Of a stretch of DNA of 64,000 nt, positions 4,079 to 61,975 are shown piece after piece. Made by a program: the position numbers and the translations under genes. The first letter of the stretch is position 1, and every line of letters starts with the position of its first letter. Location: contig NZ_GL538208.1 of assembly GCF_000165735.1 (NCBI RefSeq), forward strand, positions 296,682 through 360,681. The letters are read 5' to 3'. The notes under the pieces are model-generated. The model was given only the letters and a program-made list of their open reading frames with translations. It made no database searches and was not told where the DNA came from. Origin of the DNA: Megasphaera micronuciformis F0359 (lineage in GTDB: Bacteria; Bacillota; Negativicutes; Veillonellales; Megasphaeraceae).

Positions 4079-4101
4079 GAATAAAATAGGGGGTGTATGG
4101 A

Positions 4102-5199
4102 ATGTATACTGAAATTTCCAAAATAATTGAAGGTGCGTTATCCGGAGACAAGGAAAAGGTCTTTAATTATTCTAAAATATTGGCCCAAAATTTAGAAAAT
4201 GATGGTGACTTAGCATTATCACGAAAAATAAATAATTTATTATCAAAAAAAAGAGGAGGAATACTGTCCTTAGATGCATTATCGTCTAGGCCTGTTGATG
4301 GTGAAAGCAGAATGGACATGGTGGATATTTGCTATCCAATTATTGATAGAAACAAATTAATTTTGAATAATGAAATTGACAACAAAATCAAGGAGTTTAT
4401 AAAAGGCTATGAAAATAGAGATAAATTATTAAAAGCTGGAATAGATGAACCTTGTACATTGCTTCTCTATGGTCCGCCGGGATGTGGTAAAACCTCAATG
4501 GCACAATATATATCTATGGAGACTGGACTTCCATTAATAACAGCAAGGTTAGATGGAATGATTTCATCTTTGTTGGGGAATACAGCAAAAAATATTAGGA
4601 AAATATTTGATTTTGCTTCAAGGCAAGAATGTATCTTGCTTTTAGATGAATTTGATGTAATCGCTAAAATAAGAGATGATAAAAATGAGACGGGAGAATT
4701 AAAAAGAGTTGTAAATAGCCTTATTCAAAATATAGATGTTTTTAGCAAAGATAGTATTATAATTGCAGCTACAAATCATCATGAATTACTTGATCCCGCT
4801 ATTTGGCGAAGATTTAATAGAGTTTTAAGTGTTAGTAAACCAACAGAACTTGAAATTAATAGTTTGATTCATACATGTATCGATACATCAAAATTTAAAT
4901 TTGATATTTCAGATAAGAAAATTGAGAATATATCAAGTTTGCTAATAGGATTAAGTCATTCTGATATTAACACTATAATGAATAATTCTATGAGAAGTTC
5001 CGTAATAAATGAAAAAAATAAGATTACATTATTTGATATTTTAAGGGAGGCATTTTTGTTCAAAAATCATTCAATAACTAGTGACATGGAGTTCCTTGAA
5101 TTTTTAATTCAAGGAAGAATGACTCATAGAGAATTGCAAAGTTGTGGATTTCCACTGAGAAGAATACAGATGGTTTCTAAAAAGTTAAGGGGTGAATAA
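4102..5199 (+). CDS. AAA+ ATPase of ietAS-like defence/stability system, copy 1
   Basis: This is a single-domain AAA+ ATPase of about 365 residues. Walker A is GPPGCGKT at residues 124-131. Walker B is LLLDEFD near 180-186. Sensor 1 is in AATNHH, and the arginine-finger region is AIWRRF. The last 35 residues (MTHRELQSCGFPLRRIQMVSKKLRG) look like a helix-turn-helix. The next gene, 2 bp downstream, is a subtilisin-like protease. This gene order is that of IetA-IetS, known as a plasmid stability pair of Agrobacterium Ti plasmids and reported as an anti-phage module. I chose ATG 4102 over the in-frame GTG at 4093 because AGGGGG is well spaced from it and copy 2 starts with the same residues. Codon use is AT-rich, unlike the que genes, which suggests transfer. 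Confidence 0.85.
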   Translation: MYTEISKIIEGALSGDKEKVFNYSKILAQNLENDGDLALSRKINNLLSKKRGGILSLDALSSRPVDGESRMDMVDICYPIIDRNKLILNNEIDNKIKEFIKGYENRDKLLKAGIDEPCTLLLYGPPGCGKTSMAQYISMETGLPLITARLDGMISSLLGNTAKNIRKIFDFASRQECILLLDEFDVIAKIRDDKNETGELKRVVNSLIQNIDVFSKDSIIIAATNHHELLDPAIWRRFNRVLSVSKPTELEINSLIHTCIDTSKFKFDISDKKIENISSLLIGLSHSDINTIMNNSMRSSVINEKNKITLFDILREAFLFKNHSITSDMEFLEFLIQGRMTHRELQSCGFPLRRIQMVSKKLRGE

Positions 5200-5201
5200 T
5201 A

Positions 5202-7535
5202 ATGAAAGAGAAATTGCCAATTAAATTTTTTTCTAAACGTGAAGAAGATAAACAAAGAGTAGAAGGTGGAGGTAAAAAAGAACTTCCTAAATTTGTTCTA
5301 AGTGGTAGTGAGTTAAATGAAAAATCTGCTGAATTGTCTCGAATGATTTTTGATGCGTTAGAAGAAGATTGGGAAGACAGAAACATACCAGTTATAATTG
5401 AAGCAAAATTAAATAAAGATGCTCATGCTAAAAGCCATAGAAAGAAAATTGAGAATATATTTTTTACTAATAAGAATAATGTTATTGGAGTTTCAGATGA
5501 AAATACTTTAATTGTTCGTGTAGATTCTCAAAAAGATGGAGCTAAAATTGAAGAAAAAATAACCGATGTTAAAAATAATGCATATGGTATTTCGGGTATT
5601 GACAATATCATTAAATATAAGCCTACTGCATATAAAACGGAAGGCGTCTCTAACTATAAGGTAAAACTTTTTAACTTCAATGAGTTTTCTGTTAACACGA
5701 GTCATAAAGCAAAATTTGAGATGCTCTTGAGAAATGAACATGTAGAATTCGTAAAAACAAATTATACGAAATCACTGATAATATATAAACTATGCAATAT
5801 ATCAAATTTGCAAGTGGATAAGCTTGTAAATAGCACATTATTTGACTTAGCAGAAGAATTTGTTCCTATGCCATATGTATCAATTAATTTAGATATTTTG
5901 AATAAAAAAGATGAAGTTAAAGTAAAAGAATATGATGCTGATAAAAAAAGTGAGATTGTCGGTGTTTTAGATAATGGAATATGTGGGATAGCCCCATTAA
6001 AGTCATGGATTTATGGAAATAGAAATTCCCCATATCCAAATGAATTAATATCGGCAAGTCATGGAACATTTGTTGCGGGTGTTATTACATATGGGGATGA
6101 GTTTCAAGGAGAAGAAGTTGTTGGGGCTAAAAATATAAGAGTCTTTGACGCTGCGATTTTTCCAGATACTCAAAAGGAAAGCATAGAAGAAGATGAATTA
6201 ATAGAAAACATTAGAGAGGTTATAAAAAATAACCATAAAGAAATAAAAATATGGAATTTATCAATAAGTATTGTTCGAGAAATATCTGAACAAAAATTTA
6301 GCGATTTTGCTATTGCATTGGATGATATTCAAGACGAATATAATGTCCTAATATGTAAATCAGCTGGAAATTGTGATAATTTTTCTAGAGGAGGTGCTGT
6401 TGGCAAATTACAAGAAGGAGCTGATTCCGTTAGATCATTGGTGGTTGGATCTATTGCAGATAAAAAAGAGTATGGTTGGATATCTGAGCCATATAACTTA
6501 TCGCCATTTTCGAGAAGAGGTCCAGGTCCTGCATATATAATAAAGCCTGATATTGTTCATTTAGGCGGTAATGCTGGAGTTAATTCACAAGGAGAGATTA
6601 TTCAAGGGGGAGTAAAATCATTTTCTAAAAATGGAGAGATTGCAGAACAAGCAGGCACTAGCTTTTCCACCCCTAGAGTAGCGGCTTTAGCTGCGGGATT
6701 ATTAAATGAAATGGATGAAGAATTTGACCCGTTGTTATTGAAAAGCTTAATAATTCATTCAGCTAATTATCCTAATAATACTGAAATATCAGAATTTGAA
6801 AGAACTAAATATCTTGGTTTTGGATTACCTAATACCGTTCATAACATATTATATAATACTCCAAATGAGACAACTTTAATACTGCGAGATGTTCTGCCAA
6901 AAGGGAGATTTATAGATATTAAAGACTTTCCTATGCCAGAATGCTTGGTAAAGGATGGGTTCTTTAATTTTCAGGCTATTGTAACACTTGTATATGATCC
7001 TATTTTAGATCCAACTCAAGGGTTCGAATATTGTCAATCGAATATAGATGTGAAGTTTGGTTCTTATGATGAAAAGGTACCTAGAGATACAAGTAAGAAT
7101 TGTATATTAAATCCGATTGGAAGGAATGGGGCTCAAAATATATTGGTGGGTTCATTATATAGCAAGGTCAAAATGAGAGAATCATCGAAAGAGTTTGCGT
7201 TAAAAGAAAGAATGTTAATTCAGTATGGAGACAAATATTATCCAGTAAAAAAATATGCAGTGGATACATCTGAGTTAACAGACGGGAACAAATTGAAATA
7301 TACAACTGCCGATAAAAAATGGTATTTAACAATAGATAACACTTATAGAAGTAGTATTGAAGATAGGGCAGTTATCGAGAATAGGGAATTAAGTCAAGAA
7401 TTTTGTTTAATCATCACAATTAAAGATCCAACTAATACTTGTAATGTTTATAATGGTATTACACAAAAACTCGATGAATATAATTTTTGGCACAATAATA
7501 TCAAAATATCAGAAAATATCAATATTAAGTTATAA
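5202..7535 (+). CDS. Subtilisin-like (S8) serine protease of ietAS-like system, copy 1
   Basis: This 777-residue protein has an S8 peptidase core. The catalytic Asp is in GVLDNGI (D257), His in ASHGTFVAG (H287), and Ser in GTSFSTPRVA (S487). The oxyanion Asn is in SAGNCDN (N390). About 240 residues precede the core, beginning LPIKFFSKREED, and about 270 follow it. No signal peptide is visible, so a cytoplasmic role with the AAA+ partner is likely. In the IetAS family the protease is the toxic effector and the ATPase restrains or directs it. That is family knowledge and was not shown here. It is AT-rich, shares the promoter of the ATPase, and converges on a relaxase remnant 29 bp away. The proteolytic target is unknown. 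Confidence 0.85.
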   Translation: MKEKLPIKFFSKREEDKQRVEGGGKKELPKFVLSGSELNEKSAELSRMIFDALEEDWEDRNIPVIIEAKLNKDAHAKSHRKKIENIFFTNKNNVIGVSDENTLIVRVDSQKDGAKIEEKITDVKNNAYGISGIDNIIKYKPTAYKTEGVSNYKVKLFNFNEFSVNTSHKAKFEMLLRNEHVEFVKTNYTKSLIIYKLCNISNLQVDKLVNSTLFDLAEEFVPMPYVSINLDILNKKDEVKVKEYDADKKSEIVGVLDNGICGIAPLKSWIYGNRNSPYPNELISASHGTFVAGVITYGDEFQGEEVVGAKNIRVFDAAIFPDTQKESIEEDELIENIREVIKNNHKEIKIWNLSISIVREISEQKFSDFAIALDDIQDEYNVLICKSAGNCDNFSRGGAVGKLQEGADSVRSLVVGSIADKKEYGWISEPYNLSPFSRRGPGPAYIIKPDIVHLGGNAGVNSQGEIIQGGVKSFSKNGEIAEQAGTSFSTPRVAALAAGLLNEMDEEFDPLLLKSLIIHSANYPNNTEISEFERTKYLGFGLPNTVHNILYNTPNETTLILRDVLPKGRFIDIKDFPMPECLVKDGFFNFQAIVTLVYDPILDPTQGFEYCQSNIDVKFGSYDEKVPRDTSKNCILNPIGRNGAQNILVGSLYSKVKMRESSKEFALKERMLIQYGDKYYPVKKYAVDTSELTDGNKLKYTTADKKWYLTIDNTYRSSIEDRAVIENRELSQEFCLIITIKDPTNTCNVYNGITQKLDEYNFWHNNIKISENINIKL

Positions 7536-8560: not shown

Positions 8561-9574
8561 TGTGACAAAGAAATAAAAAATAAGAAGGAACTCTGTTATA
8601 ATGCAAGTGACCAAACCAACAAGATAACAGGAGACCCTTCTTATGAGACCTATTATAACCGAAGAACTGAGACTTCGTAAACGGATATGTGAATTTGCCA
8701 TTAAGCATGGAAACAATGCAGAGGCAGCTCGGTGTTATCATACGAGCAGATAATAGGCACAACGGTGGTTAAAAAGATACGATGGAACCCTAGATTCGTT
8801 GAGACCTTTAAGCCGAAGACCGCATACACAGCCCAACCAACACACGACAGCCGAATTAGCTATAGTTCGTCAGATGAATACGCGATATCGTCACGAGGGG
8901 TTGGCTCAAGTATACGTAGAGTCGTGTAAACGGGGATATACTCGTTCATATGGATCCATGTGTAGGCAAATACGTAAGCATCAGTTCACGGTAAAAAAGG
9001 TCAAGAATTTCCCCAAAAGTAAATGGAAGCCGGACGTAGTATCGTATCCGGGTGAGAAGGTATAAAATATGTTCCCCGGGAATGTATCGAGGAAAACCCG
9101 AATGGGACGCAGTACTATCAGGTTACAGCCATTGATGAATATTCAAGGAAACGAGTGGCGGCTATTGTTGATGAAAAAAGAGTTACTCATACGAGTGAGT
9201 TCTTGTTGACGTTGGAATCCAAGATAGGATTTAAGATAAGCACTGTACAAACAGATAATGGCAGGGAGTTTACGAATATGGGAATCAGTGAACGAATCTG
9301 TCAGTTTGATGTGGTAGCGCAATGGCTAAAGATAGAACATAAAACGATTCGACCGTTCTCGCCGTGGCAAAACGGCAAGGTTGAGCGTAGCTACAGACGA
9401 GACAGAGAGCACTTTTATAATCGTAGCTTTAGAACGATAGAAGCCCTTTGAAAAGCTCATAAACGGTATATTAGCCGCTATAACAACATCGTACAACGGA
9501 TACTTGGATTTAAATCACCCAATGAACTGGTGACAGAATTCTTCTTAGCTCATTCTGCATGAGCCCTTGTCACA
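8561..9574 (+). mobile_element. IS481-like insertion sequence, inactive
   Basis: Terminal TGTGACAAAG (8561) and its inverted partner CCTTGTCACA (ending 9574) bound a transposase remnant. The similarity continues a few bases outward (GACATA versus GACATT read inward), so the true ends may be near 8555 and 9580. The element cuts the relaxase remnant on its left and lies about 15-20 bp from the first small-RNA repeat block on its right. Confidence 0.72.
8643..9562 (+). pseudogene. IS481-like integrase-core transposase, broken
   Basis: Reading from ATG 8643 gives a helix-turn-helix region (CEFAIKHGNNAEAARCYHTSR). It is interrupted by two consecutive stops (TAA TAG at 8751-8756) and continues in frame as AQRWLKRYDGTLDSL. 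At about 9062 a deletion and frame change removes the residues between GEKV and KYVPREC. In this family that gap holds VQID with the first catalytic Asp. The second Asp is in VQTDNGREF, and the Glu in SPWQNGKVERSYR is intact. A further stop lies at about 9449 before GFKSPNEL. The gene cannot give active enzyme. Confidence 0.85.
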
Positions 9575-9657
9575 AATGTCTTGATACACTACATTATTTT
9601 GGAACGAAAACATGACTTCCTCTTGACGTATTCTTATGAGAGTGGTTATACTGATCT

Positions 9658-9780
9658 TGCCCGTGGTGTTGGGCTGAGTATCCGGCGTTTCAACACCGTC
9701 TCGGGACGCCTGTCGGGGGTACTCCGTCGGACGGGCTAAATTTAATTCTTACCGGTGTATGTGTATACGCCGGTTTTTTT
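9658..9780 (+). ncRNA. Predicted small structured RNA A1 with own promoter and terminator
   Basis: A promoter TTGACG (9623-9628), 18 bp, TATACT (9647-9652) precedes it. A terminator follows, with a 10-bp stem ACCGGTGTAT/ATACGCCGGT (9751-9774) and a T run. Hairpin 1 has outer stem GGTGTTG (9665-9671)/CAACACC (9691-9697), inner stem GCTG/CGGC, and hexaloop AGTATC (9677-9682). Hairpin 2 is GCCTGTC (9708-9714)/GACGGGC (9730-9736), with GGTACT (9718-9723) in the loop. The two loops are complementary, allowing an internal kissing-loop. Paralogues keep this pattern with different bases. Function is unknown. Confidence 0.72.
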
Positions 9781-9828
9781 GTTTTCCCTTCATTGACGTG
9801 CGTCCTTATATTTTGATACACTTAGGTC

Positions 9829-9910
9829 ACCGGATGTGTCGGGTCTAGCGTCAGACGAAGCGACACTGGTACCGGTTGCCTGCGGGGGACGCTCCGACTG
9901 TCGGGTACTA
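9829..9910 (+). ncRNA. Predicted small structured RNA B1
   Basis: The promoter is TTGACG (9793-9798), 18 bp, TACACT (9817-9822). Hairpin 1 is GTGTCG (9836-9841)/CGACAC (9861-9866), with inner stem GTCT/AGAC and loop AGCGTC (9847-9852). Hairpin 2 is GCCTG (9878-9882)/CGGGT (9902-9906), with GACGCT (9888-9893) in its loop, perfectly complementary to loop 1. No strong terminator is seen directly after it. A 6-bp hairpin ATGTGT/ACACAT lies about 25 bp downstream without a T run, so the 3' end is uncertain. Confidence 0.65.
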
Positions 9911-9990
9911 AGCTCATTCTTGATATTATTTTGAATGTGTGCAACACATGTTCATTAGTTATATCGGGTTTGGGCATTTTTTATTTTATA

Positions 9991-10044
9991 ATAAATATTG
10001 AGGTCAGTGCTGAGTAGGTGCCGACTTCAATATTATTGAACTCC
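9991..10044. mobile_element. Solo end of an ISL3-like element
   Basis: ATTGAGGTCAGTGCTGAGTA and the following GGTGCCGACTTCAA resemble the right end of the ISL3 element at about 3860-3911, which has TTGAAGTCAGCACTTATTTG followed by GGTGTTGACCCAAA. No transposase lies beside it. It looks like a remnant or a single end left by a deletion. It also forms a long hairpin (AATATTGA/TCAATATT). Confidence 0.45.
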
Positions 10045-10064
10045 AAAATGGGTATGGCAAAAGA

Positions 10065-10092
10065 GGCACCGAACACAACTGTGTTCGGTGCC
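10065..10092 (-). terminator. Terminator hairpin of the MatC/HMGL/CoA-transferase operon
   Basis: A 12-bp perfect stem GGCACCGAACAC / GTGTTCGGTGCC with loop AACT lies 53 bp beyond the carrier gene stop on the minus strand. The T run on that strand is short (CTCTTTTG). Confidence 0.7.
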
Positions 10093-10144
10093 GAGTAATA
10101 CCATTTGTTTACTTACTCCTCAATGTTTGAGAAAGAGAAGAAGT

Positions 10145-11419
10145 TTATATAAATAATGAAACAATGGGGTCAAACAGTAACGCTGATACGACTATAATGA
10201 CAACGAGGGAAGCTGCCGCCGCCATAAGTAACTGAACGAATACTTTAGCTTGTTGGGTAGAGGTAAAGTTTTCTACGTTGGTCCCCATTGCGGCTAAGAT
10301 TAGAGCTCCGCCTGTTGACATGGGAGAAATTCCTGCTAACGAGCCTCCGGCTCCGACGGCTGCCATTAAGGCAAGCGGTTCAACTCCACCGACTTGTGCA
10401 GCTATATCGGTACACATGGGCATCATGGTAGGATATACGACTGCCAATGCAGAACTTACCAGACTGAGTAAACCTGCCGACACGCCCATAAGAGGAATTG
10501 CCGTATTACTGGTCATAATGGAAGAAATTGCGGCGCTCAGTAACTTTATTCCGCCAACCTTATCTACGATGGTTAATAAGACGCCGACACCTAATACCAT
10601 AATAATTGTTCCCCAAGGAAGGGCTTTTAAGCATTCTCCATCGGGAGCGATGCCGAATAGGACTAAAAGGGCACTGGATATAAAGGCTGCTAAACCGATG
10701 TTGACTTTGAATACAATCATTAATACTAACATCAATAATATACCGCTTAAAGCAATCAGCTGTTTAGCAGTAAAGGGACCGGGTTTTGTTACCGTTGCAT
10801 TGGTCGTTGTCAATTTATATCCTTTGAAATAAATGAATACAAGGATAGAGATGACAAGGGTAATGATTGTCTGACAAGCCAGTATAGCGGGCATTACATT
10901 ATCAATACCTGAAGTAGCTGCTGCACTAGTGATAACAGCGGCTTCGGGTGTAACGCTGGTCATTCGGCCCGCTATCAATCCGAATTCACCTATGAGGGCT
11001 AACATAATCGGATTGTAACCTACTTTTAAAGCTGTTGTAACGGCTATAGCCGGGATGATTGCTAAAGCGGGAATTGCACCGGGGCCTACACCAGCAACAA
11101 TAAATCCGGCTATGTAGATTGCGATCGGAAGAAGCCAAACTTTTTTCCCCGTAGCTGAAATTATTTTTTCAGCCAATAAGTCCAAGGCTCCCGTGGACTT
11201 TACTACGGCAAATAAGAAAGTTATGCCGACTAAGGTACAAAACATAGAGCTGCTTATGCCGCTGATTAATTGTTTGTCTGTTAAACCGAATATACGGACT
11301 GCGATCGCGCCGACAGCAATTGCCAAAATACCTATATTTACTTTTCGTATAAAAGCAAGAACTATAGTAACAATGAACAATACTAATGCAAGTAAATCCA
11401 TCTCCATAATCGTTTCCAT
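10145..11419 (-). CDS. MatC-like dicarboxylate carrier
   Basis: This 424-residue membrane protein has about 11-12 hydrophobic segments and no signal peptide. The N-terminal part (NIGILAIAVGAIAVRIFGL, then LVGITFLFAVVKSTGALDLL) matches the MatC N-terminal domain of the IT (ion transporter) superfamily. Conserved loops such as GVGPGAIPALAIIPAIA and SPMSTGGALILAA are where substrate and Na+ binding is expected. It is the last gene of a three-gene minus-strand operon, 24 bp after the lyase gene. The likely substrate is the C5-C6 diacid that the two enzymes activate and cleave. MatC itself carries malonate, but the substrate here cannot be read from sequence. Confidence 0.8.
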   Translation of the reverse strand: METIMEMDLLALVLFIVTIVLAFIRKVNIGILAIAVGAIAVRIFGLTDKQLISGISSSMFCTLVGITFLFAVVKSTGALDLLAEKIISATGKKVWLLPIAIYIAGFIVAGVGPGAIPALAIIPAIAVTTALKVGYNPIMLALIGEFGLIAGRMTSVTPEAAVITSAAATSGIDNVMPAILACQTIITLVISILVFIYFKGYKLTTTNATVTKPGPFTAKQLIALSGILLMLVLMIVFKVNIGLAAFISSALLVLFGIAPDGECLKALPWGTIIMVLGVGVLLTIVDKVGGIKLLSAAISSIMTSNTAIPLMGVSAGLLSLVSSALAVVYPTMMPMCTDIAAQVGGVEPLALMAAVGAGGSLAGISPMSTGGALILAAMGTNVENFTSTQQAKVFVQLLMAAAASLVVIIVVSALLFDPIVSLFI

Positions 11420-11443
11420 AATTATACCTCCGTTATGACTAAC

Positions 11444-12349
11444 CTAGTGGGAGCAGGGGGTGTTGATGTGTATCTGGTGACCGCTGTAGTTACCGGATAT
11501 AACTGTCGTTTCATATAGTGCCGTATCAAGCATCTTTTGGAAGTCGATGCCGGTGTGAATGTTCATAGCGTTTAACATGAATATCAAGTCCTCGGAAGCT
11601 ACATTGCCGGAGGCTCCGGGAGCAAACGGGCAACCACCGAGACCACCGACCGCAGCCTGAACTGAATTAATTCCGGCTTCAATTCCGGCTAATGTACTGG
11701 CAAGCCCCATTCCTCGGGTATCATGAATATGCAATTCGAAATGTTCATTAGGAAATTCTTTGAGTACGGCTTTAGCGGTATTTCGTACCATTAAAGGATC
11801 GGCTTGGCCTATTGTGTCGGCTAAACAGAATTGATGAATTCCTAAGTCAACGCCTTTACGGATGATAGACAGTACATTATCTATAGGCGTAATGCCTTCA
11901 AAAGGACAGGTGAATGAAGTTGCTAGAGAAAGAATTATTTCCATGTCAGGCAGCTCTTGGCGGATAGCGGTTAATCCTTCTAAGGACTCGGAAACAGTAC
12001 GATTTATATTTGCTTTATTATGAGATTCGCTTACCGAAATAACCGTATCAATTTTGGTTAAACCGCATTCTGCAGCTGCTTTTGCTCCAAATAAATTAGG
12101 GACGAGTGCAAAAAAATCAACGTCGGAAGAACCGTGCTTTTCGAGCGTTTTAATGACTACATCGTGCGAGTCTTTCATTTGGGGAATAGCCTTGGGGTGC
12201 ACAAAAGAGGTGAGCTCCATAGATTTAACTCCCGATTGAATCAGCATATCTATGATGTGAAGTTTTTTTTCGAGAGGAATATATTCTTTTACATTCTGAA
12301 AACCGTCTCTGGGACCAACTTCAACAAAATTTACAGATTTAATATCCAT
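11444..12349 (-). CDS. Hydroxymethylglutaryl-CoA lyase family enzyme
   Basis: This TIM-barrel aldolase-type lyase of 301 residues belongs to the HMGL-like/DRE-TIM group. The N-terminal VEVGPRDGFQN carries the Arg-Asp pair that binds the metal and substrate. LHIHDTRGMG provides the metal His ligands. GGLGGCPFAPGASGN carries the catalytic Cys loop typical of HMG-CoA lyases. It would cleave a 3-hydroxy-3-methyl acyl-CoA, for example HMG-CoA to acetyl-CoA and acetoacetate, or citramalyl-CoA to acetyl-CoA and pyruvate. The neighbouring class III CoA transferase could supply that thioester. Sequence alone does not separate these substrates. The transferase gene stops 11 bp upstream of its ATG. Confidence 0.88.
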   Translation of the reverse strand: MDIKSVNFVEVGPRDGFQNVKEYIPLEKKLHIIDMLIQSGVKSMELTSFVHPKAIPQMKDSHDVVIKTLEKHGSSDVDFFALVPNLFGAKAAAECGLTKIDTVISVSESHNKANINRTVSESLEGLTAIRQELPDMEIILSLATSFTCPFEGITPIDNVLSIIRKGVDLGIHQFCLADTIGQADPLMVRNTAKAVLKEFPNEHFELHIHDTRGMGLASTLAGIEAGINSVQAAVGGLGGCPFAPGASGNVASEDLIFMLNAMNIHTGIDFQKMLDTALYETTVISGNYSGHQIHINTPCSH

Positions 12350-12360
12350 TACAGATCCTC

Positions 12361-13554
12361 CTAAATATAATTATTTGTTTTCAATTCTTCAATTTCGGCA
12401 TCATTAAGACCCAGGAGAGCGGATAATACATCTTCGGTATCTTGTCCTAATGCCGGTGCGGGTCTGGAGATTTGCACTTTGGTATCCATTAATTTAACCG
12501 GGTTGCCGTTGACTTTCATATCCCCGATAACCGGGTGAGGCAAAGATACAAACATTTCTCGGGCTTCGGCAATATGTTCATCTTCCGTCACACGTTTTAA
12601 GCCGTTAATAGGTGCGGCAGGAACTCCGGCGTCATTTAGAAGTGTAACGGCTTCGTCGATTGTAAGATGGCGGCTCCATTCTTCTATAATGGGTTTTAAT
12701 TCCTGATGGTTTTCACAGCGTTTCAAATTTGTTTCAAATCTGGGGTCAGACAACAACTCAGGCATATTAATTACCTTGTTGCAAAATAGAGAGAATAACT
12801 TATCATTACCGCAACCGATAACAAATAAACCGTCGCTGGCTTGGAATGAATCATACGGGTATGCGGCGGCATAACGGTTTCCCATTAATTCAGGCTGCTT
12901 TCCCGATGCAAAGAAACGTTGTGTCCCTGTTTCCAAACTGGAAACTACGGAGTCAACTAAAGATACGTCTACTCGTTGGCCTTTATGTATGAGTGTTCTT
13001 GCATGGAGTGCCATCAGTATGCCGATAGTTAAGTTCATGCCGCCCAGAACGTCGCCCATAGCGTTGCCGACACGAATACCGTGTCCGCCGGGATCTCCGG
13101 TAATACTCATGAGTCCGCCGGTAGCCTGGGCAATGATATCATATCCGGGGCGATCGGATTTAGGACCATAGCAACCGAAGCCGGAAACTGCGGCATAAAT
13201 AATTTGATCATTTACTTCTTTTAAAGTGTCATAACCAATTCCGAGTTTATCCATAACTCCGGGACGGAAATTTTCTACAACTACATCGGCTTTTTTGACT
13301 AAATCGAGGAAGAGTTGTTTTCCTTTTTCGGATTTCAAGTTTAACGTAATGCCTTTTTTGCCTCGATTTACATTAGCATAGTAAAGACTTTCACCGTTTT
13401 TAAAGGGTCCGAATGCACGAGTATCATCGCCCTTGTTGGGGACCTCGATTTTTATTACATTTGCACCATAGTCTGCTAACATCATCGTGCAGTAAGGCCC
13501 GGCAAGTACACGTGTGAGGTCTAATACAATAATGTCTTCCAATGCTTTTTTCAT
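12361..13554 (-). CDS. CaiB/BaiF (class III) CoA transferase
   Basis: This 397-residue protein is a formyl-CoA-transferase-like enzyme. The N-terminal LDLTRVLAGPYCTMMLADYG, the RGKKGITLNL motif, and RPGYDIIAQATGG with the catalytic Asp that forms the acyl anhydride are all visible. The family moves CoA between carboxylic acids, often from succinyl-CoA. Known members act on hydroxymethylglutarate, citramalate, itaconate, carnitine and oxalate. With the HMGL-like lyase and the carrier, the simplest reading is uptake, activation and cleavage of hydroxymethylglutarate or citramalate. It is the first gene of the minus-strand operon and divergent from a PrpR-like regulator. Confidence 0.88.
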   Translation of the reverse strand: MKKALEDIIVLDLTRVLAGPYCTMMLADYGANVIKIEVPNKGDDTRAFGPFKNGESLYYANVNRGKKGITLNLKSEKGKQLFLDLVKKADVVVENFRPGVMDKLGIGYDTLKEVNDQIIYAAVSGFGCYGPKSDRPGYDIIAQATGGLMSITGDPGGHGIRVGNAMGDVLGGMNLTIGILMALHARTLIHKGQRVDVSLVDSVVSSLETGTQRFFASGKQPELMGNRYAAAYPYDSFQASDGLFVIGCGNDKLFSLFCNKVINMPELLSDPRFETNLKRCENHQELKPIIEEWSRHLTIDEAVTLLNDAGVPAAPINGLKRVTEDEHIAEAREMFVSLPHPVIGDMKVNGNPVKLMDTKVQISRPAPALGQDTEDVLSALLGLNDAEIEELKTNNYI

Positions 13555-13782
13555 TTCGTCACATCCTGTCTTTTAATTAAAGTAATAAGAACATTCTTGA
13601 TGGTTATTATGTTAAAATAGAGAACAAGTAATGTATAATTGTGTTAAAAAAGGCGAAAATGAACAAAAAATGTTTCATAAATAAGCAATATAAAATGAAT
13701 GAAACTAAAAAGCATATAACACGTGATGTAAGATGGCGACTTAATTTCAATATATGAGAAAAATGAATAGGTATGAAGGGAT
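13555..13782. promoter_or_regulatory. Divergent control region between CoA-transferase operon and its regulator
   Basis: This 228-bp AT-rich spacer separates two divergent genes. It contains the imperfect inverted repeat ATGAAC-N7-GTTTCAT (13659-13678), a candidate operator. I see no clear -24/-12 sigma-54 element. Sigma-70-like TATAAT (13634-13639) is present on the plus strand. Assignment of promoters to either gene is uncertain. Confidence 0.4.
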
Positions 13783-15675
13783 GTGTGTTGTAAAGTTATG
13801 AAGGGATCTGTCCGAAAAGATAAGTATAAGGTTTGTATATTGTGTTTTTCTTATATGTGGGAATTAGCAAAGACGGTAATCAGTGAACTGGATCACACCG
13901 ACACGGATTATGATTTGTATGAAGCGGATTTATTAAATCAGGATGAAGTTGTTCACACGGCATTAAAGGAGGGTACACAGGTTTTTGTTACAGGAGGCGG
14001 TAGTGCGGCACGCTTTAAGCGAAACTACTCCTTGCCGCTGATAGAGTTTCGTGTTAGAGATATAGATTATATGGTTGCTATACAACATGCAAAACAACTG
14101 GGATATTCCAAAATCGGTGTTGTATATCATAAAGATGCTACGATTGTCCCTCGTTTGTCCATGTATGAGCAATTGTCAGAGACTATGGTATGTCCTATAG
14201 TATTTGACGATGTTTCGGATTTGAAAGAGTCTATTGAAAAGACTGATTGCGAAGTGGTTATAGGAGCGGCAGCGACAATAGATCTTGCAATTACATTGAA
14301 TAAACCTTATGTGAGGCTGTATGCCGGTGAGGAAACTATTAGAGACGCCTGTTTAAGGGCCAGAGACTTGGCAATCCAATTATTTGAAACAAAGCGAAAC
14401 AAGCGAATTTTTAAATCTGTTTTATACACGGCTCAATTAGGGATTGTTATAACCGATAAAGACGGAAAAATTGAATTTATGAATAAGACTATGGAAAAAT
14501 ATATACAAGCGTCCGCTCAGGATCTTCAGGCTATGAGCGTCGAAGAACTCTTCCCTAACTTGCCGTATAAAAAGCTTATGGAAAATGAAGCTTGTTCAAA
14601 CGACAGTTATCATTTGATTGCTAACACTATGATGCGGTGCGTTATGGAGAAGATTGTCGTTTATGGGAAAAATAGCGGTGTTATTATGTCATTCCATCCT
14701 AATCCGCATAACTTAAGGAGAAAAGGGAAAAGCATAAAGAATCCTTTTCCGGTGTATAAATTGAAAAATATTACGGCATATTCTGATAGTATGAAAGGGC
14801 TGGTGGATAGTTGTCACAGTATAATTCCGGTAGAAGAGCATACCATGATTTTAGGAGAAATTGGAACAGCCAGAGAAGAAGTAGCAATGTGTTTGCATAA
14901 TGCATCTCACAGAGCCGACAAAACTTGTATAACCATAGACTTAGCTCTTGTTGATGACGACAATGCTAATAAAATATTTTACGGGTATATAGAAAAGGGA
15001 TGTAGGATTGATGGATTGCTTGTGGATGCAAATGGGGGAAGCGTTATATTAAAAAACATAGAAATGGCCTCATTACGAGTACAAGCAATTTTGAGTAATG
15101 CAATCTATCATAAACAGATATTTTTACCGGGAATGGCATTACCGGATATTTTTGATATCGTTTTTTATACGGTAGCTCTCCCTGAGGAAGAACAGAAGAT
15201 TCGTCCGGATTTAAGACAAGCCCTATCCATAAATCAATTACAAATACCTGTTTTACGGCAGCGAATTGAAGATATAGTACCTTTATTTATGAAGTATCTT
15301 ATTAGTTTAACCAAATCTAAGAAAATCCAATCCGTAACTGAGAAGATGGAAAGACTTTTAGTTACATATACTTGGCCCGGTAATGTTACTGAACTAAGGA
15401 CTGTTTCTATAAAATATGTAAAAATGCTTGAACAATCCAGTTATAGAACGGCTGAGTGGAGGTATGAGTGTCTAATCAAATCAATCGGCGAAAAAAATAT
15501 TATAGAGGCAATTAGAAGTATGTATCCCTATTCGGACGGAGCTAAGGCGGAAAATAATGAGCAGTTGAGGAAACGAATTGAAAAAGTTAAAGACTTATTA
15601 GGATATACTAATGAAAAAATTGCCGACTTGTTAGCGGTCAGCAGGACAACTGTATGGCGAATTATGAAGAAATAA
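13783..15675 (+). CDS. PrpR-N/PAS/degenerate sigma-54-activator-like regulator
   Basis: This is a transcriptional regulator of about 630 residues. Residues 15-200 resemble the PrpR N-terminal sensor (VFVTGGGSAARFKRNYSLPLIEF), and about 205-300 a PAS domain (TAQLGIVITDKDGKIEFMNK). Next comes an AAA+-like domain followed by a C-terminal helix-turn-helix (NEKIADLLAVSRTTVWRIMKK). The AAA+ part is degenerate. The Walker A position reads GEIGTAREEVA without the GxxGxGK(T/S) lysine, and no GAFTGA loop is seen, so sigma-54 activation is unlikely. It probably senses an acyl intermediate and controls the divergent operon. GTG 13783 is poorly spaced from GAAGGG, and ATG 13798 is an alternative start. 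Confidence 0.82.
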   Translation: MCCKVMKGSVRKDKYKVCILCFSYMWELAKTVISELDHTDTDYDLYEADLLNQDEVVHTALKEGTQVFVTGGGSAARFKRNYSLPLIEFRVRDIDYMVAIQHAKQLGYSKIGVVYHKDATIVPRLSMYEQLSETMVCPIVFDDVSDLKESIEKTDCEVVIGAAATIDLAITLNKPYVRLYAGEETIRDACLRARDLAIQLFETKRNKRIFKSVLYTAQLGIVITDKDGKIEFMNKTMEKYIQASAQDLQAMSVEELFPNLPYKKLMENEACSNDSYHLIANTMMRCVMEKIVVYGKNSGVIMSFHPNPHNLRRKGKSIKNPFPVYKLKNITAYSDSMKGLVDSCHSIIPVEEHTMILGEIGTAREEVAMCLHNASHRADKTCITIDLALVDDDNANKIFYGYIEKGCRIDGLLVDANGGSVILKNIEMASLRVQAILSNAIYHKQIFLPGMALPDIFDIVFYTVALPEEEQKIRPDLRQALSINQLQIPVLRQRIEDIVPLFMKYLISLTKSKKIQSVTEKMERLLVTYTWPGNVTELRTVSIKYVKMLEQSSYRTAEWRYECLIKSIGEKNIIEAIRSMYPYSDGAKAENNEQLRKRIEKVKDLLGYTNEKIADLLAVSRTTVWRIMKK

Positions 15676-15770
15676 TAGACATTAAATAGACCGCTGCAAG
15701 CACAGATCATACCCTAAAAGTCGGATAAAACTTTGATATACAACTTGTATGTGTAATATCTGATTTCCCC

Positions 15771-15888
15771 TTGCCAAGTTCCCATCCGATCTGCTACACT
15801 TGCAGTGAAAAGGTGTATTTCTGCCGCCGCATTCGGACGTATGGCAGGGGTTCTTACGAGCATCGCGCCCCGGCAGTAGCATCTTTTT
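15771..15888 (+). other. Candidate further small transcription unit D
   Basis: A promoter of the same layout as the A/B/C RNAs (TTGCCA 15771-15776, 18 bp, TACACT 15795-15800) precedes a GC-rich segment. That segment can form CTGCCG/CGGCAG and GGGG/CCCC pairings (about 15830-15877), followed by CTTTTT. The pairing does not follow the A/B/C plan, and loop-loop complementarity is weak. It may be a diverged relative or unrelated. Nothing else is seen between the regulator stop and the repeat at 15889. Confidence 0.35.
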
Positions 15889-15950
15889 ATTTTGGAACGA
15901 AAACATGATTTTCTCTTGACGGATTCTTATGAGAGTGGTTATACTGACCT

Positions 15951-16072
15951 TGCCCGTGGTGTTGGGCTGAGTATCCGGCGTTGCAACACCGTCTCGGGAC
16001 GTGGGTCGCGGATACTCGGACGGACTCACTAATTTTAATTCTTACCGGTGTATGTATGTACGCCGGTTTTTT
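15951..16072 (+). ncRNA. Predicted small structured RNA A2
   Basis: The promoter is TTGACG (15916-15921), 18 bp, TATACT (15940-15945). The terminator stem ACCGGTGTA/TACGCCGGT (16044-16067) is followed by T6. Hairpin 1 keeps GGTGTTG/CAACACC and loop AGTATC as in A1. Hairpin 2 is GTGGGTC/GACTCAC instead of GCCTGTC/GACGGGC, so several pairs changed on both strands. Its loop GATACT pairs perfectly with loop 1, whereas A1 has a G-U at one position. These compensatory changes support the structure. Confidence 0.72.
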
Positions 16073-16118
16073 GTTTTCCTTCATTGACGTTCGTCCTTGT
16101 GTTTGATACACTTAGGTC

Positions 16119-16196
16119 ACCGGATGTGTCGGGTCTAGCGTCAGACGAAGCGACACTGGTACCGGTTGCCTGCGGGGGACGCTCCGACTGTCGGGC
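16119..16196 (+). ncRNA. Predicted small structured RNA B2
   Basis: The promoter is TTGACG (16084-16089), 17 bp, TACACT (16107-16112). The body is nearly identical to B1: GTGTCG/CGACAC, inner GTCT/AGAC, loop AGCGTC, and second-hairpin loop GACGCT. The closing pair of hairpin 2 reads GCCTG/CGGGC here versus GCCTG/CGGGT in B1. The 3' end is not defined by an obvious terminator. Confidence 0.65.
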
Positions 16197-16293
16197 TTTT
16201 AGCTCATTCTTGATATTATTTTGAATGTGTGTAGTACATGTTCATTATTTATATCGGGTTTGAGCGTTTTTTTATATTCTGATATACTTGTTT

Positions 16294-16403
16294 CACCGGA
16301 TGTGTCGGGTTGAATATCCAACGAGGCGGCACTGGCACCGGTTGCCCGCATTGGATATTCAGATTGACGGGCTCTTGCCGACGTATGTACGTCGGCTTTT
16401 TTT
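16294..16403 (+). ncRNA. Predicted small structured RNA C
   Basis: The promoter is TTGAGC (16260-16265), 17 bp, TATACT (16283-16288). Hairpin 1 is GTGTCG (16302-16307)/CGGCAC (16327-16332), with inner stem GTTG/CAAC and loop AATATC (16313-16318). Hairpin 2 is GCCCG/CGGGC, with GATATT (16354-16359) in its loop. The loop pairing can extend to 10 bp (GAATATCCAA/TTGGATATTC). A strong terminator GCCGACGT/ACGTCGGC (16377-16396) plus T7 follows. It has the same plan as B with different paired bases. Confidence 0.75.
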
Positions 16404-32221: not shown

Positions 32222-32410
32222 CCAAGAGAAACCCTACTGTGTGCGTAAAAAGTTCTCGATGTTTTGAACCAACACTTTTACATCGGGAGTCCGGGCTCTA
32301 TGGCGGCAAAACAATGCCTACACGGGACTGTTAAGCGTTATAGGAGGACACCCACCTGCTCAGGCAGGCTCAAAACTCGGCTAAGACGGCATGGTGGGGC
32401 TCTTTTTTTG
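32222..32410 (+). ncRNA. ssrS: Probable 6S RNA
   Basis: A TATACT -10 (about 32211-32216) begins a roughly 190-nt unit. Its 5' end (AAGAG...CCCTACTG) pairs with its 3' end (ATGGTGGGGCTCTT), giving a long rod. The inner part holds hairpin TTCTCGATG/CATCGGGAG with TTTTGAACCAACAC in the loop, then a large unpaired centre and CACCTGCTCAGGCAGG. A T run follows. Length, rod shape, and the GAACCAACA-like segment fit Firmicutes 6S RNA, which binds the RNA polymerase housekeeping holoenzyme. The assignment was made without covariance-model search. Confidence 0.55.
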
Positions 32411-44414: not shown

Positions 44415-44465
44415 GTGTCCGTATACCTATGGCGTAAAGTTCATCGGGTATGATATAATGCCATA

Positions 44466-44713
44466 ACACGTGCTGTGGTTGAAAGTCGATGCCAGTCGCA
44501 GGCGAAGCGATCCACGTAAGGGCTCGAAGCGGGTCCGATCATAGTGCGGCCTAGAAGTAAGACCTGCCGCGAAAAGCGAGAGAACCGGTAGTGGGGGACA
44601 AAAGTCTATGAGCGAAAGTTCCAGCAGGCGAGTGTGGGGGTAAAAACCAGGTCAGGCGTGTTGGACTTCGTTTGAAGTCTATTGAAAAGCCATCTTTGGA
44701 TGGCTTTTTCAAT
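44466..44713 (+). ncRNA. Large structured RNA of unknown identity (raiA-motif-like)
   Basis: An extended -10 promoter (TGATATAATG, TATAAT at 44454-44459) begins a roughly 245-nt G+C-rich segment with no open frame of note. It has many short self-complementary stretches (CGCAGGCGAAGCG, TGCGGCCTAGAAGTAAGACC then TGCCGCG). It ends with a strong terminator TTGAAAAGCCATC/GATGGCTTTTTCAA (44682-44713). Sequences typical of RNase P, tmRNA and SRP RNA are not recognised. Its size, G-rich GTGTGGGGG part and location are compatible with the raiA-motif RNA class of Firmicutes, but I could not verify that. Confidence 0.55.
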
Positions 44714-59145: not shown

Positions 59146-60348
59146 ATGGCGAAACAGATACATGTCAGACTGGATGATGCAGTCTATGAGGCTATTTCCA
59201 AATATAACGATGATACTAATATTTCAATGCAGGATGCGGTTTCTACAGCACTTATGCAGTTCCTGACACGTGAAATGAGGGATGTTCAGCCAGAAGCTGA
59301 TTTTACTTTTATTGACCTTTTTGCGGGAATAGGAGGCATGAGACTTGCTTATGAGCAGGCTGGAGGTCATTGCGTGTACTCCAACGAGTGGAACAAGTAC
59401 AGTCAGCAGACTTATTTTGCAAACTTCGGAGAACAGCCGGATGGCGATATTACTAAAGTGGACGAAAACAGTATACCTGATCATGACATTCTTGTTGCAG
59501 GCTTCCCCTGCCAGCCTTTCTCAATTGCCGGCGTATCAAAGAAGCAAAGTCTTGGAAGAGCGACCGGGTTTGAGGATAAGACCCAGGGAACCCTTTTCTT
59601 TGATATTTGTCGGATTCTTAAGGCCAAGAGACCTAAAGCGTTTATGCTGGAGAACGTGAAGAACCTTAAAGGCCATGACAGGGGCAGAACATTCAAAGTT
59701 ATTACCGAAGCCCTTGAAGAATTGGACTATGAAGTATTCCATGCCGTACTTGATGGGCAGAACTATGTTCCACAGCACAGGGAACGTATTTTGATTGTAG
59801 GTTTTGACAGGAAGAGATATGGAAGAGATATTGGCTTCCGCTTTAGCATTGCACCTGTTAATCCAAAGCCTGCAATAAAAGCAATTCTTGAAACAAAAGT
59901 AGACGACAAATACACACTGACAGATAAACTTTGGACATATCTTCAGAATTATGCGGCAAAACACCGTGCTGCAGGCAACGGATTTGGTTACGGCATCGCT
60001 GATCCAAACGGTGTGTCAAGAACATTATCCGCCCGCTATTATAAGGATGGATCAGAGATCCTGATTGAGCAGAGAGGAAAAAACCCAAGAAGACTGACTC
60101 CGCGGGAGTGTGCAAGACTCCAGGGATTTCCGGATGATTTTATTATTCCGGTTTCTGATACGCAGGCGTATAAACAGTTTGGAAATTCTGTTGTCGTCCC
60201 GTTGATGGCTAATGTCGCACAGCTTGTTGTGGATAAAATGAAGGAACTTGATGCTGAAAAGAAGAAGAAAAAACAACAGGATCAGAGGGCTGCACTCATT
60301 TACGAAACTGATGAAACCAATGGAAGAAAAGTGGCGGTGATGGCATGA
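59146..60348 (+). CDS. DNA (cytosine-5) methyltransferase with N-terminal ribbon-helix-helix
   Basis: This 400-residue m5C methyltransferase belongs to the Dcm/EcoRII group. Motif I is [14 protein letters not shown], motif IV is GFPCQPFS with catalytic C122, motif VI is MLENVKN, motif VIII is [11 protein letters not shown], and motif X is [14 protein letters not shown]. The first 45 residues ([20 protein letters not shown]) look like a ribbon-helix-helix DNA-binding domain, unusual for this family and a likely autorepressor. The target is probably CCWGG-like, judged from the EcoRII-like and Vsr neighbours. It overlaps the endonuclease gene by 4 bp (ATGA). The RBS is AAAGGAGTGG. Confidence 0.92.
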
Positions 60349-61523
60349 ATAACGAAATTACGACAAAAGCAATCGGTGCTGTGCTGAGCGGCGGTCCTTC
60401 ATACTGCAAGTTCCTTTCAGCAAATGACAGTGGTGAGACAGGCGGTCATCAGTCTGGGATTTTGATTTCAAAATCCGCTAAGGCCATGCTCTGGACGGAT
60501 GATGAAATGCGGGAAAATCATATTCTTAAGAAATATGGTCGGATTCGCTGGCAGGAAGATTACGTTACAGACTGTACTTTTACCTAGTATGAAAGTAAAA
60601 ACGAACTGAGAATAACGGGTTTTGGAAGAGGAAAATCGCCGCTTTCAGCAGAGTTCACTGGGGCCCTTTTTGTCATGGTGAAGGATTCAGAAGAAGAGTA
60701 TCGCGGGTATATTCTGAATACAGATGATGACATTGAGCAGTTCCTTGATGCGTTTGGCTTAACTCCAGCAGAGACAAACAGGCCAATAGAGATTAATCGA
60801 GTAAGCCCTGAAATTCGGGAAAAACAGGCTATAGATTCGTTTATTGAAACACTGAAGGTGGACTTTCCTGCATCAGCAGAAATGTCACAGGCAGCAAGAA
60901 TCATCCAGAATCAGGTGTATTTGAATCAAATGCTCGCGGTAAAAGATCCTGACTCCATTCTTCTGCGATGGACGGATCAGGAATATACACTCTTCCGGGC
61001 TATTGAACATGCGAGGTATGGGGATGTTGTAGCCGGTGGGTTTGCCTCGGTTGATGATTTTGTTATCATGGCAAACCGTGTGTTGAACCGGCGAAAAAGC
61101 CGTGCCGGAAAGAGCCTCGAGCATCATCTCTCTGCAATTTTTGATGAGAACAGAATACAATATGCAGCACAGGCTGTTACAGAGGGAAATAAAAAGCCGG
61201 ACTTTCTATTCCCGTCAGAGGAAGCATATCATGATATGACGTTTGAAATTGAGAAACTCTGCACACTGGCAGCCAAAACCACCTGTAAGGACAGATGGCG
61301 ACAAATACTTAATGAGGCAGACAGACTTCGCGATGAGAGTAAATATCTTTGTACTATGCAACAGGGTATATCGGCGGCGCAGATGGATGAAATGCAGGCC
61401 GAGAAAGTAATTCTTGTTGTTCCAAAAGCTTATCATTCAGCATATCCGAAGGAAAAGCGGGATCGCATATGGACTCTTGGTAGGTTTGTGAATTATGTGA
61501 GGGAAATGGAAGGTATTATCTGA
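60345..61523 (+). pseudogene. EcoRII-like type II restriction endonuclease, interrupted by in-frame amber codon
   Basis: Reading from ATG 60345 gives 392 codons with one TAG at codon 81 (60585-60587) and no frame shift. Before it lies the N-terminal EcoRII effector domain (CKFLSANDSGETGGHQSG). After it follow YESKNELRITGFGRGKS and TGALFVMVKD, and the catalytic domain with NRRKSRAGKSLEHHL, EGNKKPDFLFPSEEAYHD and TTCKDRWRQILNEADR. A single TGG-to-TAG change would explain the stop. Either the gene is silent, leaving a solitary methylase with Vsr, or a shorter product starts at ATG 60675. The overlaps with the methylase and vsr genes are intact. Confidence 0.88.
60675..61523 (+). CDS. C-terminal part of the EcoRII-like endonuclease (possible reinitiation product)
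   Basis: This is the open reading frame downstream of the amber codon, 282 residues from ATG 60675. It keeps the whole predicted catalytic domain (PD-(D/E)xK type, KPDFLFPS and KTTCKDRW). It lacks about 110 residues of the N-terminal domain. In EcoRII the N-terminal domain restrains the C-terminal nuclease, so a truncated product could be active. No good ribosome binding site is seen before 60675, and translation would rely on reinitiation about 87 bp after the stop. Confidence 0.55.
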   Translation: MVKDSEEEYRGYILNTDDDIEQFLDAFGLTPAETNRPIEINRVSPEIREKQAIDSFIETLKVDFPASAEMSQAARIIQNQVYLNQMLAVKDPDSILLRWTDQEYTLFRAIEHARYGDVVAGGFASVDDFVIMANRVLNRRKSRAGKSLEHHLSAIFDENRIQYAAQAVTEGNKKPDFLFPSEEAYHDMTFEIEKLCTLAAKTTCKDRWRQILNEADRLRDESKYLCTMQQGISAAQMDEMQAEKVILVVPKAYHSAYPKEKRDRIWTLGRFVNYVREMEGII

Positions 61524-61975
61524 TGGCGGATATCAAATCCCCTGAAGAACGGAGTCTTAACATGGCGAGAATTCGTAGTAAAGACACAAAACCGGAAATC
61601 TGGCTACGAAGGAAGCTGTTTGCAAAGGGATATCGATACCGGAAGAATGTGAAAAATGTGCAGGGACATCCGGATGCATGGCTTGCAAGATATAATACGG
61701 CACTCTTTGTTCACGGTTGTTTCTGGCACAGGCATAATGGGTGTAGATATGCATACATGCCAAAAAGCAGAATTGAATTTTGGACAGACAAGTTTCAGAA
61801 AAATGTAGAGAGGGATCAGACGGTCAGAACCGAACTTGAAGCTGCTGGAATTAAAACGTTGATCATTTGGGAATGCACGATAAAACAGATGATGAGGCAG
61901 GAACAATACTCTGATGAGGTGTTGAGTCAGATAGAAGATTTTTTACGATCAGAAGAAAAATTTAAAGAGATATAA
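61523..61975 (+). CDS. vsr: Very-short-patch repair endonuclease Vsr
   Basis: This 150-residue Vsr nicks next to T:G mismatches that arise from deamination of 5-methylcytosine in the methylase site. SKDTKPEIWLRRKLFAKGYRYR is the N-terminal block. The catalytic Asp is in GHPDAWL, and the zinc/active-site segment is FVHGCFWHRHNGC. KNVERDQTVRTELEAAGI and LIIWECTIKQ close the fold. It overlaps the endonuclease stop by one base, completing a methylase-nuclease-Vsr operon. A terminator follows. Confidence 0.94.
   Translation: MADIKSPEERSLNMARIRSKDTKPEIWLRRKLFAKGYRYRKNVKNVQGHPDAWLARYNTALFVHGCFWHRHNGCRYAYMPKSRIEFWTDKFQKNVERDQTVRTELEAAGIKTLIIWECTIKQMMRQEQYSDEVLSQIEDFLRSEEKFKEI

Follow-up and report, generated by a model that had tools for sequence, protein, structure and literature searches.

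In the packaging RNA (pRNA) of phage phi29, two complementary loops pair between molecules around a three-way junction, and a loop-loop contact also occurs in the lysine riboswitch. To our knowledge, few structured small RNAs are known from mobile DNA, and fewer still join a kink-turn and a covarying six-base kissing interaction in less than 90 nt. Here we describe a family of predicted small RNAs of this kind, five units of which (A1, B1, A2, B2 and C) lie in a stretch of 64,000 nucleotides from Megasphaera micronuciformis F0359 (NCBI RefSeq assembly GCF_000165735.1, contig NZ_GL538208.1, positions 296,682 to 360,681 of the forward strand), referred to below as the window. These RNAs share with the phi29 pRNA a pair of complementary loops and a link to phages; unlike in the pRNA, their helices P0/P1 and P2 lie next to each other, and many of the copies fall outside any recognised phage gene. 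The lysine and SAM-I riboswitches are gene leaders with a ligand, whereas the units described here are predicted standalone genes.

Several further RNAs offer comparisons for parts of this architecture. In the SAM-I riboswitch, it is a kink or turn in the RNA that brings a terminal loop to its remote partner (PMC5061560), as may be the case here. OLE RNA, a standalone bacterial noncoding RNA, is described as needing a kink-turn that is bound by the L7Ae relative YbxF/OapC (PMC9723947); a kink-turn sequence is present in 14 of the 19 members aligned here. ROOL and GOLLD, structured RNAs borne by phages and prophages, contain covarying kissing loops (PMC12286853). OLE is about 600 nt long with a different secondary structure, and ROOL and GOLLD are several hundred nt long and form nanocages, whereas the present family has a core of 86 nt. 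It also has no match in Rfam, among whose models OLE is presumably included, which likewise sets it apart from ROOL, GOLLD and the two riboswitches. By description rather than by sequence, the family can be likened to svsR, a prophage-encoded small RNA that alters phage infection; svsR differs in being found in Enterobacteriaceae and in repressing maltodextrin transport genes (PMC12803456). A precedent for an RNA "moron" exists in a prophage small RNA that restricts infection by phages (PMC12803456).

The structure of the present family is well supported, and its function is inferred. We present evidence that its members have two hairpins whose six-base loops pair with each other, that they are encoded as self-contained genes, and that their distribution in related bacteria and phages is patchy.

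Results

All five units of the preliminary description are present in the window, each consisting of a -35/-10 pair and an 86-nt core. They form two clusters, A1 with B1 at 9623-9982 and A2 with B2 and C at 15916-16403, which flank a metabolic operon and its regulator (10145-15675). From predicted start to the end of the T run the units measure 109-155 nt. Their parts, all predicted, are as follows.

9623..9652, + strand: A1 promoter; -35 TTGACG 9623-9628, -10 TATACT 9647-9652, spacing 18 bp
9653..9738, + strand: A1 core RNA; start 9659; loop 1 9677-9682 AGTATC pairs with loop 2 9718-9723 GGTACT, one G-U
9751..9780, + strand: A1 terminator-like hairpin and T run
9793..9822, + strand: B1 promoter; -35 TTGACG 9793-9798, -10 TACACT 9817-9822, spacing 18 bp
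9823..9908, + strand: B1 core RNA; start 9829; loop 1 9847-9852 AGCGTC pairs with loop 2 9888-9893 GACGCT
9912..9982, + strand: B1 3' part, a long hairpin then a T run (terminator-like); weak in the 40-nt test (-5.0)
15916..15945, + strand: A2 promoter; -35 TTGACG 15916-15921, -10 TATACT 15940-15945, spacing 18 bp
15946..16031, + strand: A2 core RNA; start 15952; loop 1 15970-15975 AGTATC pairs with loop 2 16011-16016 GATACT
16044..16072, + strand: A2 terminator-like hairpin and T run
16084..16112, + strand: B2 promoter; -35 TTGACG 16084-16089, -10 TACACT 16107-16112, spacing 17 bp
16113..16198, + strand: B2 core RNA; start 16119; loop 1 16137-16142 AGCGTC pairs with loop 2 16178-16183 GACGCT
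16202..16273, + strand: B2 3' part, a long hairpin then a T run (terminator-like); weak in the 40-nt test (-7.0)
16260..16288, + strand: C promoter; -35 TTGAGC 16260-16265 (within the end of B2), -10 TATACT 16283-16288, spacing 17 bp
16289..16374, + strand: C core RNA; start 16295; loop 1 16313-16318 AATATC pairs with loop 2 16354-16359 GATATT
16377..16403, + strand: C terminator-like hairpin and T run

The promoter spacings (18, 18, 18, 17 and 17 bp in the order A1, B1, A2, B2, C) agree with the 17-18 bp given in the preliminary description, and the loop pairs that it reported for A1, A2, both B units and C read identically in the window. The inner stem of hairpin 1 is, as it had stated, GCTG/CGGC, GTCT/AGAC or GTTG/CAAC, and the stems of hairpin 2 are altered on both strands between A1 and A2, whose cores are identical at 74 of 86 bases. 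Within the window, loop 1 of the A units can also form six standard pairs with loop 2 of C.

Relatives were sought at the DNA level with the 509-bp A2-B2-C stretch, which gave one clear outside match, G022 (L013), among 60 related genomes. The five units and this relative align across the core without internal gaps, and a covariance model, R1, was built from the six sequences with helices P0, P1a, P1b and P2, the loop-loop pairing being excluded; the A1 core scores 91.5 bits with this model, of which it is itself a part. R1 matched 8 of 61 genomes of the order, one of which (G025, E-value 0.33) was then dropped, and 13 of 380 genomes of the class (G110 then dropped); a second model, R2, matched 16 of the 380. 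G110 and G343, partial hits that look coding by eye, were removed before counting. Full-length cores were found in 14 of the 380 class genomes (G000, G022, G041, G043, G052 with two copies, G054, G060, G104, G113, G163, G278, G286, G290 and G295), at 19 loci, five of them in the window genome. For the 13 other carriers, the DNA search supplied one genome, R1 ten and R2 two. A third model, R3, added no genome among 151 of the family of G163 (5 matches) or among 59 of the family of G104 (3 matches, including the dropped G110), and in a phylum-wide sample it matched only the window's own genome (1 of 398). R1 found no match in any of the 14 remaining genomes of the genus to which the window belongs, and nucleotide searches of phages and plasmids found no relatives. 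Since the large searches scored only 11-76 candidate places per genome, the genome counts are lower bounds. The preliminary description had called the units a tandem family; this is true of the window genome and was seen nowhere else, as 12 of the 13 other genomes yielded a single copy and G052 yielded two separate ones.

The final alignment, A4, was made with MAFFT on sequence alone and has 19 rows. A degenerate 53-nt hit to P2 only (L076:5890-5942) was dropped, as were the IMG/VR loci L062, L063 and L064, which had 17-mer matches without a model hit; L061 and L065 do not appear in A4, since they share identical cores with L051 and L044, respectively.

Comparison across A4 shows two predicted hairpins with six-base loops that pair loop-to-loop over six base pairs. 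The structure comprises 25 pairs in six helices, in which 97.1% of cells are standard pairs, 20 pairs change on both sides and 110 cells are two-sided changes. Shuffles gave means of 74.9% paired, 13.4 pairs and 31.0 cells, and none of 500 reached any of the observed values; the observed count of further pair types was reached by 3 of 500. When partners were slid by 1-3 columns, pairing fell to 40.5-43.8%. The smaller set, of the five units and one relative, behaved similarly for pairing (98.0% of cells, with 11 pairs altered on both sides; shuffles averaged 85.3% and 5.3, and none of 500 reached either observed value), and further pair types were not raised over shuffles in it (175/500). The preliminary description had proposed three helices that stay paired while their bases change and a search of homologs for retained pairing. 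Pairing is indeed retained among the homologs, and the number of such helices rises from three to six.

The loop-loop helix joins columns 25-30 with 70-75. It was part of no search model, yet 97.4% of its cells are paired, and all six of its pairs change two-sidedly somewhere in the alignment. Sixteen of the 19 rows form six of six pairs and the remaining three (G286, G290 and G295) form five. Nine types of loop pair occur, among them AGTATC/GATACT, AGCGTC/GACGCT, GGCATT/AATGCC, GATATT/AATATC and GGCACT/AGTGCC. At the two ends of the kissing helix, the next position could pair in only 6 and 7 of the 19 rows, so that the helix is confined to the loops in most rows. One long nested helix was accordingly rejected as the general fold, two-sided extension being possible in 6 of 19 rows.

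Covariation was scored on the 19 sequences against a null in which the substitutions of the tree are replayed at random positions. The best-scoring pair overall, 68-77, had not been drawn beforehand. With 69-76 it closes loop 2, which is therefore also a hexaloop; both pairs form in 19 of 19 rows and were added to the structure after the test. The scores of 68-77 and 10-55 exceed every pooled null value, and pair 24-34, in stem P1b, reaches an E-value of 0.04. Among the loop pairs, 27-73 has an E-value of 0.06 and 25-75 one of 0.59.

The position of the fold relative to its promoter is also conserved. The -10 box of the best sigma-70-like promoter ends exactly at column 1 in 18 of 19 loci, with a spacing of 17-18 bp; the shuffle P of the promoter is 0-0.085 in 18 loci, G104 being the exception that fails (P 0.37). 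The predicted start is column 7, which is a purine in all 19 rows (G in 11, A in 8). This arrangement would place the fold right at the 5' terminus of a transcript of its own. In a lenient test run without a control, all 19 cores are followed by terminator-like hairpins; 16 are at -12 kcal/mol or lower, and those of B1, B2 and G113 are weak in the 40-nt test. The family thus has the marks of a standalone sigma-70 small-RNA gene, its own promoter at a fixed distance and a terminator, and each unit is predicted to be a self-contained gene with a promoter of this type and a terminator.

In a standard kink-turn, two helices are joined by a three-base bulge and, after it, G.A and A.G pairs (PMC5061560). 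Between P1a and P1b of hairpin 1, all 14 rows from outside the window read NGA on one strand and NNNGAN opposite it, and so contain, at the level of sequence, the GA/GA core of this motif. Position 3b,3n is A.G in 12 of these 14 rows, an identity that has been linked to folding of the kink-turn before protein is bound (PMC5061560). The branch of the window genome appears to have lost the kink-turn, because its five units have Watson-Crick pairs at this place. Proteins of the L7Ae type (PF01248) are encoded in all 18 genomes in which they were sought, 14 carriers and four non-carriers.

We found no described RNA class to which the family could be assigned. Over the window, Rfam release 15 gave gathering-score matches only to raiA RNA (44463-44664) and 6S RNA (32228-32404), both above their thresholds and both off the units. 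At E-values up to 10 the units drew five matches, whose 11-17 bits fall far short of the thresholds of 31-49.5. Eleven homolog regions gave one tRNA and one SAM riboswitch at gathering score, both off the RNA, and eight homolog loci a single match at E-values up to 1, also off the RNA. Membership of an Rfam family was rejected in the absence of a match at gathering threshold, for units and homologs alike, in keeping with the preliminary description, which had recognised no known class; transfer RNA (tRNA) or transfer-messenger RNA was rejected as well. A search of the literature that took in few subscription journals found no description of this RNA among the entries listed.

The neighbours of the RNA were compared over 11 kinds of genomic place. 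In G041, G052, G060 and two IMG/VR contigs the RNA lies antisense inside a large phage gene, which has LPD38 and phage-lysozyme domains and, in the four cases seen whole, is unbroken and 1771 codons long. The segment of this gene that adjoins the RNA has a sub-threshold match to PBECR2 (E 0.0074, 16.9 bits against a cut-off of 27.1). A relative of the gene at 39% identity has no such insert at the place of the RNA in the alignment, and a protein search with part of the gene found relatives at less than 60% identity, those listed being at 25%. In G278 the RNA is antisense to the start of another large open reading frame (ORF), with a ddrB-ParB domain and phage-family matches. One of the IMG/VR contigs with the RNA (L065, 5706-6059) runs into what looks by eye like an EF-Tu ORF, and the prophage may adjoin tuf.

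Elsewhere the RNA follows an array resembling clustered regularly interspaced short palindromic repeats (CRISPR) with a period of 67-68 bp (G054), or lies near a restriction enzyme and a methyltransferase, with the next gene convergent (G043 and G052), or near EcoRII-type, methyltransferase and Vsr genes (G113). In G286 and G290 a large gene of the same strand begins about 180 bp downstream of it, identified in G290 as a type IIG restriction-modification gene. G163 carries it on an 11-kb contig with a ParA-type gene, a long inverted structure being visible by eye directly upstream of the RNA (L077, about 9190-9330). By eye, a Fic-like ORF lies near the RNA of G295. Beside the RNA of G104 (L076, 5900-8140), 2.2 kb without clear genes hold three copies of a 48-nt family and two of a 68-nt family with a -10-like start; this repeat stretch has no Rfam match up to E 1, and its 48-nt unit recurs near the RNA of G113. 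The window itself contains a defence pair upstream of A1.

4093..7535, + strand: IetA (4093-5199) and IetS (5202-7535), PADLOC E 5.5e-132 and 0; a neighbour distinct from the RNA, 2.1 kb upstream of A1

Broken transposase-like frames were seen by eye at 8799-9560, just upstream of A1. Also by eye, a second pair resembling IetA/IetS lies at 62154-64000, and ORFs like a cytosine methyltransferase and Vsr, resembling the G113 genes that adjoin the RNA, lie at 59146-61975.

When the 141 ORFs neighbouring the RNA in the 11 contexts were compared all against all by BLASTP, five matches linked different contexts, and none extended to a third: two methyltransferases, two phosphotransferase system-type permeases (G043, G290), one distant gene common to G043 and G054, and spurious ORFs that overlie a structured repeat present in both G104 and G113. 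Because no gene is common to more than 2 of the 11 contexts, the RNA probably acts in trans. A cis leader or riboswitch was rejected since no downstream gene is shared more widely than this, and a type III antitoxin RNA since no protein gene is either and no toxin family was found among the neighbours scanned. At the G043-type place the flanking genes occur with the RNA in G043 and G052 and without it in G054, G060, G041 and G023; the empty site of G054 is short, and no target duplication was seen there by eye. The window stretch from the operon regulator to the genes after C was matched in one of 14 genus relatives, over 331 bp only.

A known defence locus lies within 2.2 kb of the RNA in 5 of 11 contexts, the CRISPR array being counted among them. 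For comparison, 70 ORFs of at least 120 codons from 19 random regions of the same genomes were matched to PADLOC at E-values up to 1e-20. These control regions matched 54 PADLOC families, and 10 of the 70 ORFs were scanned singly. Two genes account for 52 of the families: a probable defence gene of the HEC-06/Orf5 type (G054:C1:1706092-1710492), 8 kb from the RNA of G054, and a UvrD-type helicase that may be housekeeping. The number of positive controls is at least 1 and probably 1-2, and Fisher's test of 5/11 gives p = 0.016 against 1/19, 0.043 against 2/19 and 0.091 against 3/19. In this comparison the distance was set after the fact, the CRISPR array counted as a positive for the RNA, and only 3 of the 19 controls were checked for repeats.

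Discussion

Taken as a whole, these observations are best explained by a mobile, self-contained, trans-acting RNA whose kinked and kissing fold would form a compact scaffold for protein binding, possibly in phage-host conflict; we give this reading a probability of roughly 0.4. The position of the promoter predicts that the RNA starts at or beside its first helix, P0, which would tie the 5' end into pairing. The kink would fold loop 1 back onto loop 2 within one molecule, yielding a compact, nuclease-resistant scaffold that may act in trans by binding a widespread host protein. A protein partner is suggested by the constraint on the entire fold and by the frequency with which kink-turns serve as protein sites, and the first candidates would be the L7Ae-family kink-turn proteins (YbxF/YlxQ type), which all 14 carriers encode. 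The units of the window, without a kink-turn, would need another bend or another partner. The gene may spread as a small cassette carried by phages and other mobile DNA, and may persist as an RNA-only "moron" that helps its carrier in conflicts of phage or element with the host. In the window genome it would have expanded to five copies, an AB pair standing to either side of the metabolic operon.

A number of observations weigh against this explanation. With 19 sequences most single pairs miss E<0.05, and column pairs outside the structure (24-73, 25-54 and 54-75) score as high as loop pair 25-75. Minimum-energy folding of six of the RNAs, three of them window units, gave z-scores of -0.17 to -2.30, which do not single them out from shuffles, and the minimum-energy folds of A2, B1, C and G163 favour one long nested helix instead of two hairpins. 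The absence of the kink-turn from all five window units means that not every member needs it. The PF01248 proteins are available as partners, but, being present in carriers and in the four non-carriers alike, they leave the patchy distribution unexplained. No known defence gene was found within 2.2 kb of the RNA in G022, G104, G163 or G295, and the association with defence genes, post hoc and weak, is suggestive only.

The chief alternative is that the loops pair between molecules, giving dimers, rings or larger particles in the manner of the phi29 pRNA and of ROOL and GOLLD. The same covariation fits this arrangement, since covariation cannot tell intramolecular from intermolecular pairing, and the kissing loop of ROOL, at first interpreted from covariation as a tertiary contact, turned out to link separate chains (PMC12286853). 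The copies in phages and the limitation of the kissing helix to six base pairs in most rows point the same way. However, the location of the kink-turn would appear to let hairpin 1 bend back towards hairpin 2, ROOL and GOLLD are far larger RNAs, and the ability of the A loop 1 to pair with the C loop 2 means that homo-assembly would not be strictly specific; we consider intermolecular pairing unlikely, though a serious competitor. A switch between two hairpins and one long nested helix of the loop region would account for the four minimum-energy folds of the latter kind, which in C extends well past the loops. That helix could be extended on both sides in only 6 of 19 rows, stem P1b covaries in its own right, the minimum-energy fold of G043 is the two-hexaloop form and that of A1 keeps hairpin 1 with its hexaloop, so that a two-state switch seems improbable.

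The preliminary description had suggested protein-binding or antisense regulators. The kink-turn sequence of the relatives makes protein binding more likely. A classical antisense regulator, its loops serving as seeds for target messages, would suit a standalone gene with promoter and terminator, and variation of the loops among paralogues is expected if targets differ. Yet loop 1 changes together with loop 2 throughout the alignment, the mark of an internal partner, and the linker between P2 and the terminator varies by eye among members, leaving antisense action a poor prospect, slightly poorer than the switch. An element acting in cis on the next gene, as a leader or in the manner of a riboswitch, is very improbable: the kink-turn and kissing loops do recall riboswitch architecture, and in G286 and G290 a large gene follows on the same strand, but the contexts share no downstream gene, the next gene is convergent in G043 and G052, and by the lenient test a terminator-like hairpin follows every core.

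Within the wider proposal of a mobile, trans-acting scaffold, a more specific role can be imagined, that of an RNA-only accessory gene of phages and defence islands, whose product would be a self-kissing particle or protein trap, perhaps assembled between molecules, that shields its carrier from competing phages. Such a cassette would travel by way of prophages, restriction-modification islands, CRISPR loci and perhaps plasmids. We regard this role as doubtful, somewhat more so than intermolecular pairing as such.

We thus see in the family a structured, mobile small RNA with an unusually compact fold that we could not assign to a described family. If expressed, it would serve as a compact model of RNA tertiary structure, could represent a natural target of bacterial L7Ae-type proteins, and would make a testable RNA moron. 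The window genome shows the family in the course of diversifying, with the loops and stems of paralogues changing in step and the kink-turn apparently lost.

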